Below, piece by piece: positions 36,560 through 38,261 of a DNA stretch of 53,682 bases. The stretch is from Thermus scotoductus DSM 8553 (lineage in GTDB: Bacteria; Deinococcota; Deinococci; Deinococcales; Thermaceae). Where the stretch lies: positions 1 to 53,682 of the forward strand of contig NZ_KB905738.1 in the NCBI RefSeq assembly GCF_000381045.1, written 5' to 3'. Numbering within the stretch: position 1 is the stretch's first letter; each line of letters opens with the position of its first letter. The position numbers were made by a program, and so were the translations under genes. Below the pieces are notes generated by a model. It searched no databases. It saw only the letters and a list, made by a program, of their open reading frames with translations, and was not told the DNA's origin.

Positions 36560-36602
36560 GCAAGCTTAGCCCTGGCATGTCTTGATGGTTGTTCATCTGT
36601 AC

Positions 36603-36631
36603 TTGACCGTTCCTTACGAGAGCACTAAAAT
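36603..36631 (+). promoter_or_regulatory. Promoter of the csgG-like operon
   Basis: TTGACC (36603-36608), 17-base spacer, TAAAAT (36626-36631). It is a textbook arrangement and predicts a start near 36638, just before the first copy of the tandem repeat and about 48 bases before the ATG. Confidence 0.65.
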
Positions 36632-36638
36632 CCTAAAG

Positions 36639-36669
36639 TAGGTGCCTAGAAATTATCCTAGGTGCCTAG
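36639..36669 (+). repeat. Tandem 11 bp repeat at the csgG-operon transcription start
   Basis: TAGGTGCCTAG occurs at 36639-36649 and again at 36659-36669, exactly 20 bases apart and so on about the same helical face. Each copy is itself a near-palindrome (CTAGG-TG-CCTAG in the second). The pair begins at the predicted +1 and ends before the Shine-Dalgarno GAGGTGA. Confidence 0.7.
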
Positions 36670-36685
36670 GAGTGAGGTGAACCCT

Positions 36686-38203: not shown

Positions 38204-38230
38204 GGGCGGGGGTTTCCCCGCCCTTGATTT
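38204..38230 (+). terminator. Intrinsic terminator of the csgG-like operon
   Basis: GGGCGGGG (38204-38211), loop GTTT, CCCCGCCC (38216-38223), then TTGATTTT. The T-rich tail includes the TTG at 38224, which argues against that TTG being the start of the next gene. Confidence 0.8.
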
Positions 38231-38251: not shown

Positions 38252-38261
38252 CTGTATACAG
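38252..38261. promoter_or_regulatory. Palindromic operator candidate of the GntR regulator
   Basis: CTGTATACAG is perfectly palindromic and lies one base before the GntR ATG at 38263. FCD-type GntR regulators commonly bind sites of the form TTGTATACAA, so autoregulation is likely. TACTCT (38248-38253) could be the -10, nine bases from the ATG. Confidence 0.55.

Follow-up and report, generated by a model that had tools for sequence, protein, structure and literature searches.

The near-palindromic 11-bp word TAGGTGCCTAG, which occurs twice at the start of a csgG-like operon in Thermus scotoductus DSM 8553, is most readily understood as the two arms of a hairpin at the 5' terminus of the leader, an element of a known kind; the repeat was correctly observed in the original prediction, but its interpretation as an operator is unsupported. 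We lean, with modest confidence, towards a reading in which this hairpin would protect the csgG-like mRNA from decay at its 5' end, while control would be exerted through a separate palindrome centred at position -41.5. Throughout, the window is the whole stretch of DNA analysed, 53,682 nucleotides of contig NZ_KB905738.1, and its relevant features are collected in Table 1.

Table 1. Features of the csgG-like promoter, leader and operon in the window, and related palindrome sites in other Thermus genomes
Feature	Position	Strand	Basis and remarks
Palindrome GTTCATCTGTAC, candidate activator or repressor operator, centred at -41.5	36591..36602	.	Conserved; absent from the original prediction
-35 hexamer TTGACC	36603..36608	+	Promoter scan; TTGAC unchanged in nine close orthologues
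-10 hexamer TAAAAT	36626..36631	+	Promoter scan; predicted +1 at 36638
Hairpin 5' arm, identical with TAGGTGCCTAG copy 1	36639..36649	+	Folds with 36658-36668; sequence drifts but pairing is kept in four lineages
Hairpin loop, 8 nt, AAATTATC	36650..36657	+	Fold; mostly variable in alignment
Hairpin 3' arm, overlapping copy 2 (36659-36669)	36658..36668	+	Fold; nearly invariant in four lineages
Shine-Dalgarno GAGGTG, 6 nt ahead of the ATG, outside the hairpin	36674..36679	+	Invariant in alignment
CsgG-family lipoprotein gene, 240 aa	36686..37408	+	PF03783, E=2e-24; lipobox-like LAAC
Exported partner gene, 270 aa	37374..38186	+	Overlaps the csgG-like gene; hydrophobic N-terminal stretch
KNCAYYTGNMCTTGAC sites at norC promoters	L090:1512, L091:1556, L092:429		
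KNCAYYTGNMCTTGAC sites at CoxB-like/heme-copper oxidase promoters	L093:1525, L094:1483		

The elements on which the original prediction was built are present as described. Exact copies of TAGGTGCCTAG lie at 36639-36649 and 36659-36669 with a period of 20 bp, and the promoter scan recovered the consensus match TTGACC-N17-TAAAAT (36603-36631) ahead of them. The first copy had been placed at the predicted start point itself; counting +1 as the seventh base past the -10 hexamer puts the predicted start at about G36638, one base before the copy begins. The operon does encode a CsgG-type lipoprotein, whose profile matches the E. coli CsgG structures distantly (E=2e-4), together with an apparently exported partner for which searches of Pfam and NCBIfam matched no family. 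Across the wider group, 15 of 27 Thermus species genomes carry the csgG-like gene, as do four further genomes of the family, the close matches including T. parvatiensis, Thermus sp. 2.9, T. tenuipuniceus and T. brockianus. The partner gene adjoins csgG in the close lineages only; in more distant Thermus, csgG stands without it, ahead of gntR.

In the predicted fold of the leader, the two words form the arms of an 11-bp hairpin whose first paired base is the predicted +2. An alignment of leaders from the nine closest genomes, which represent four distinct lineages (the window, G021, G023/G007 and G011), reveals two conserved blocks, one comprising copy 2 and the Shine-Dalgarno sequence and the other the sequence around the -35 box. 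Copy 1 behaves differently from copy 2: it matches copy 2 at 11 of 11 positions in the window, but at only 8, 5 and 8 of 11 in G021, G023/G007 and G011, respectively. What persists as copy 1 drifts is the pairing. Over a 10-pair core, all 40 cells of the four lineages are paired, 30 by Watson-Crick pairs and 10 by G.U, with no A.C; because G.U occurs without A.C, the pattern fits RNA of the plus strand, whereas duplex DNA or the other strand would carry mismatches in ten cells. In the 5' arm variation is confined to five positions, each of which can undergo a transition without loss of pairing; the four at which a transition would disrupt a pair are all unchanged (P=0.024). Sliding the pairing partner by one to three columns reduces pairing from 93% to 20-49%. 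The variation in the stem is entirely one-sided among four related sequences, with no pair changed on both sides, and given this we regard the covariation case as suggestive but not conclusive. The resemblance of the TAGGTGCCTAG words to direct repeats has a simple explanation, since UAGGUGCCUA pairs with itself once two G.U pairs are allowed.

These observations bear directly on the proposal that the tandem 11-mers are operators over which a dimeric repressor binds cooperatively across the start site. Near-palindromic words at +1, two helical turns apart, are what such a repressor might be expected to use, and copy 2 (CCTAGGTGCCTAGG) is nearly unchanged among close orthologues. The repeat pair is also improbable by chance, just 2 of 2000 dinucleotide shuffles of the region 36560-36685 producing an exact repeat 11 bp or longer inside 60 bp. 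The changes in copy 1, however, follow RNA pairing, G.U included, rather than preserving a second binding site. Moreover, a search of the 2.07 Mb genome found no exact TAGGTGCCTAG beyond the two known copies, and when the pair was sought with up to 3 mismatches in the 27 Thermus genomes it appeared in 5 of them, each time at this promoter and nowhere else. On conservation in orthologous promoters, which the original prediction had itself named as a way to refute it, the operator reading therefore fails. With a stronger operator candidate immediately upstream (below), we consider a tandem operator distinctly improbable. The secondary suggestion that the words might be repeated RNA elements in the 5' leader fares better: an RNA element is indicated, pairing having been kept where sequence has not, although as a single inverted hairpin and not as two repeats. 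Control of envelope or secretion functions as such, which had been thought likely from the operon's content, gains no support from the analysis.

The same shuffles bear on another explanation of the hairpin, that an inverted repeat arose by chance in a short stretch between genes and has been kept through recent common descent. Stems of at least 11 pairs appeared in 48 of the 2000 shuffles, strong stems are frequent upstream of Thermus genes, and four related sequences amount to little independent evidence. Against this, the rarity of the exact repeat is unfavourable to chance, and the pairing has persisted even though 5 of the 10 paired positions in the 5' arm have diverged, whereas most loop and flank positions diverge freely. 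Raw hairpin energy was dropped as evidence, 24% of Thermus control leaders being equally strong; such energies are unexceptional in these GC-rich genomes. Corrected for composition, the stability z scores of the window (-3.76) and G007 (-3.61) lie beyond all 144 control leaders, and those of G021 (-2.4) and G011 (-1.8) lie in the tail of the same 144 controls. Taking both sides into account, we judge a chance origin quite unlikely.

The predicted position of the hairpin recurs beyond the close relatives. Among the four close lineages the first paired base falls at predicted +2, +3, +2 and +2; in the distant G002, G005, G026 and G009, whose leader sequences are unrelated, it falls at predicted +4, +1, +2 and +1. 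Using as a criterion a single hairpin of at least 5 bp that starts by +4, chosen after the folds had been seen and applied to predicted start sites, all eight palindrome promoters qualify (a set that omits G019, which is without the palindrome, and G004, interrupted by a contig break), compared with 12-21% among control leaders and 15-47% among shuffles. Because the criterion was set post hoc and the start sites are predicted, we treat the shared 5'-terminal position over these eight promoters as a lead only. Taken by itself, the strength of the hairpin does not reach significance in promoters beyond the close lineages (p 0.14-0.20 each, 0.08 combined). Short inverted repeats also lie some 50-110 nt before distant csgG homologues in L060 and L062, from another genus (g4), where GCTAT..ATAGC and CTCCAGA..TCTGGAG stand downstream of a TATACT -10-like box.

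If the hairpin acts as RNA, it could do so as a regulatory switch, opened or closed by an RNA-binding protein (an autogenous one, for example) or by temperature, and thereby control how much of the csgG-like protein is translated. Conservation of the 3' arm is nearly complete, beyond what pairing needs; the arm lies 5 nt from the Shine-Dalgarno sequence, and the energy of the hairpin drops steeply as growth temperature is approached, all of which would suit a switch. On the other side, the Shine-Dalgarno sequence and start codon lie outside the stem and are open in most leaders, the loop sequences are unconserved, an Rfam search returned nothing credible (best E 0.93), and the asymmetry between the arms is based on few sites. 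In predicted transcripts the mean unpaired probability of the Shine-Dalgarno sequence is 0.88 in the window, 0.94 in G021 and 0.66 in G007; in G011 and G002 the predicted folds pair part of it, with unpaired values of 0.39 and 0.35. We therefore rejected sequestration of the Shine-Dalgarno sequence for the window, where it is open in the predicted fold, and regard a regulatory switch in general as unlikely. A long-range pairing between TAGGCTCACC and the Shine-Dalgarno sequence in G026 was likewise rejected, since the TAGGCTCACC arm overlaps the predicted -10 and would for the most part lie outside the transcript.

We favour instead protection of the 5' end. Known stabilising leaders are built with a stem at the very 5' end and an open ribosome site behind it, and Thermus has RNase J, which makes 5' protection the most economical function and, by analogy, probably the hairpin's most likely one. 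The csgG-like mRNA would begin near 36638, and in vivo the initial 31 nt would form a hairpin at the 5' terminus, with a stem of 10-11 bp and a loop of 8 nt; a short single-stranded stretch carrying the Shine-Dalgarno sequence and the start codon would follow. The paired 5' end would block decay that depends on the 5' end, whether by a 5'-pyrophosphohydrolase and then the 5'-3' exonuclease RNase J or by an endonuclease that senses 5' ends, and the hairpin may also prevent leader folding over the ribosome site. Transcription itself would be driven by a class-II-type activator at the -41.5 palindrome, as the position of that site suggests. Should this account hold, an apparent operator becomes a leader-RNA element in an extreme thermophile, a setting in which protection of mRNA 5' ends has been little studied, and words that look like near-palindromic "direct repeats" over a start site can turn out to be the two sides of an RNA stem.

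The palindrome overlooked by the original prediction is a better operator candidate than the TAGGTGCCTAG pair. GTTCATCTGTAC is kept in all close orthologues and occurs in either orientation in distant ones; it is a degenerate member of its family, the best copies of which approach TCAAGTGCAWWTGCACTTGA. In eight of eight promoters the palindromic 12-mer ends 22-23 nt before a -10-like hexamer, giving a centre at -41.5 or -40.5, with the -10 boxes for this spacing picked by the analyst. Searching the 27 Thermus genomes for GTNCATNTGCACTTGAC with 1 mismatch gave 13 matches, 12 of them at the csgG-like promoter; the one exception, in G016, is not close to any csgG match. The looser KNCAYYTGNMCTTGAC gave 14 matches in the same genomes, nine at csgG promoters, three at promoters of norC-type nitric oxide reductase genes (G001, G006 and G015) and two at promoters of a neighbouring CoxB-like/heme-copper oxidase pair (G002 and G004). 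The reversed KNCAYYTGNMCTTGAC control pattern had no matches in the genus. Outside Thermus, KNCAYYTGNMCTTGAC matches elsewhere at low frequency, and there are a few matches to the reversed control too. This distribution suggests a regulator shared between the csgG-like promoters, with the site at 36591-36607 in the window, and those of nitric oxide reductase clusters. A search of the CRP family for a paralogue whose phyletic pattern follows the palindrome found none that clearly matched.

A broader possibility is that Thermus carries a two-part cassette, in which the palindrome of one activator, nearly confined within the genus to csgG-like and nitric oxide reductase cluster promoters, is coupled to a 5'-terminal hairpin whose place and shape are conserved while its sequence is not, and which is kept even where csgG has given way to another exported protein. 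Between the DUF4032 gene and gntR, G009 has a different exported ORF in place of csgG (147 aa, without a confident family; L096:1013-1456, minus strand), which sits behind the same palindrome and a 5'-terminal hairpin; the promoter seems to have outlasted the csgG gene there. We hold the cassette as a tentative and rather unlikely generalisation; if it were true, a CsgG-like envelope system would be tied to anaerobic or denitrification control.

Past the csgG-like operon lies a terminator-like stem (GGGCGGGG/CCCCGCCC, 38204-38223), and then a perfect CTGTATACAG palindrome (38252-38261) right ahead of the GntR/FCD regulator of proline dehydrogenase genes; in G009 (L096) a CTGTATACAG palindrome likewise precedes the GntR/FCD gene. 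CTGTATACAG is likely an autoregulatory site of this GntR, and with its own palindrome and the terminator-like stem preceding gntR, we do not favour the GntR protein as the ligand of the upstream palindrome.

Several known systems resemble parts of this arrangement. Tandem repressor operators over a start site share with the window near-palindromic words 20 bp apart at +1, but here the words are unique in the genome, unconserved as repeats and better explained as stem arms. The closer parallel is with the 5'-terminal stem-loops that stabilise E. coli mRNA in the ompA and papA leaders (Emory et al. 1992; Bouvet and Belasco; Arnold et al. 1998; as cited in PMC3997798): in the window, too, the stem would begin a few nucleotides from the predicted 5' end, its first paired base at predicted +2, and be followed by a single-stranded ribosome binding site. 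Thermus differs from E. coli in having RNase J-type decay, and the structure of T. thermophilus RNase J includes a 5'-monophosphate pocket (PMC3997798); the start site compared here is a predicted one and the stabilisation is inferred.

The upstream palindrome, lying next to the -35 box and centred at -41.5, is placed like class II sites of the CRP/FNR superfamily such as those of SdrP (TTHA1359) in T. thermophilus. It nevertheless fits neither of the SdrP consensus sequences, TTGTG(N)9CNC and AWTGTRA(N)6TYACAWT (PMC8465061), and it has the left half only of the NsrR palindrome CTTGACCNNGGTCATGG; identification as an SdrP or NsrR site was rejected, the sequences not fitting. The nor promoters of T. 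thermophilus require DnrS, DnrT and NsrR (PMC5748679), and the likeness to NsrR-Th/DnrT-controlled nor promoters is that the norC promoters of G001, G006 and G015 carry the matching GGACATTTGCCCTTGAC. The palindrome may thus connect this envelope operon of CsgG-like type to the nitric oxide reductase regulon.
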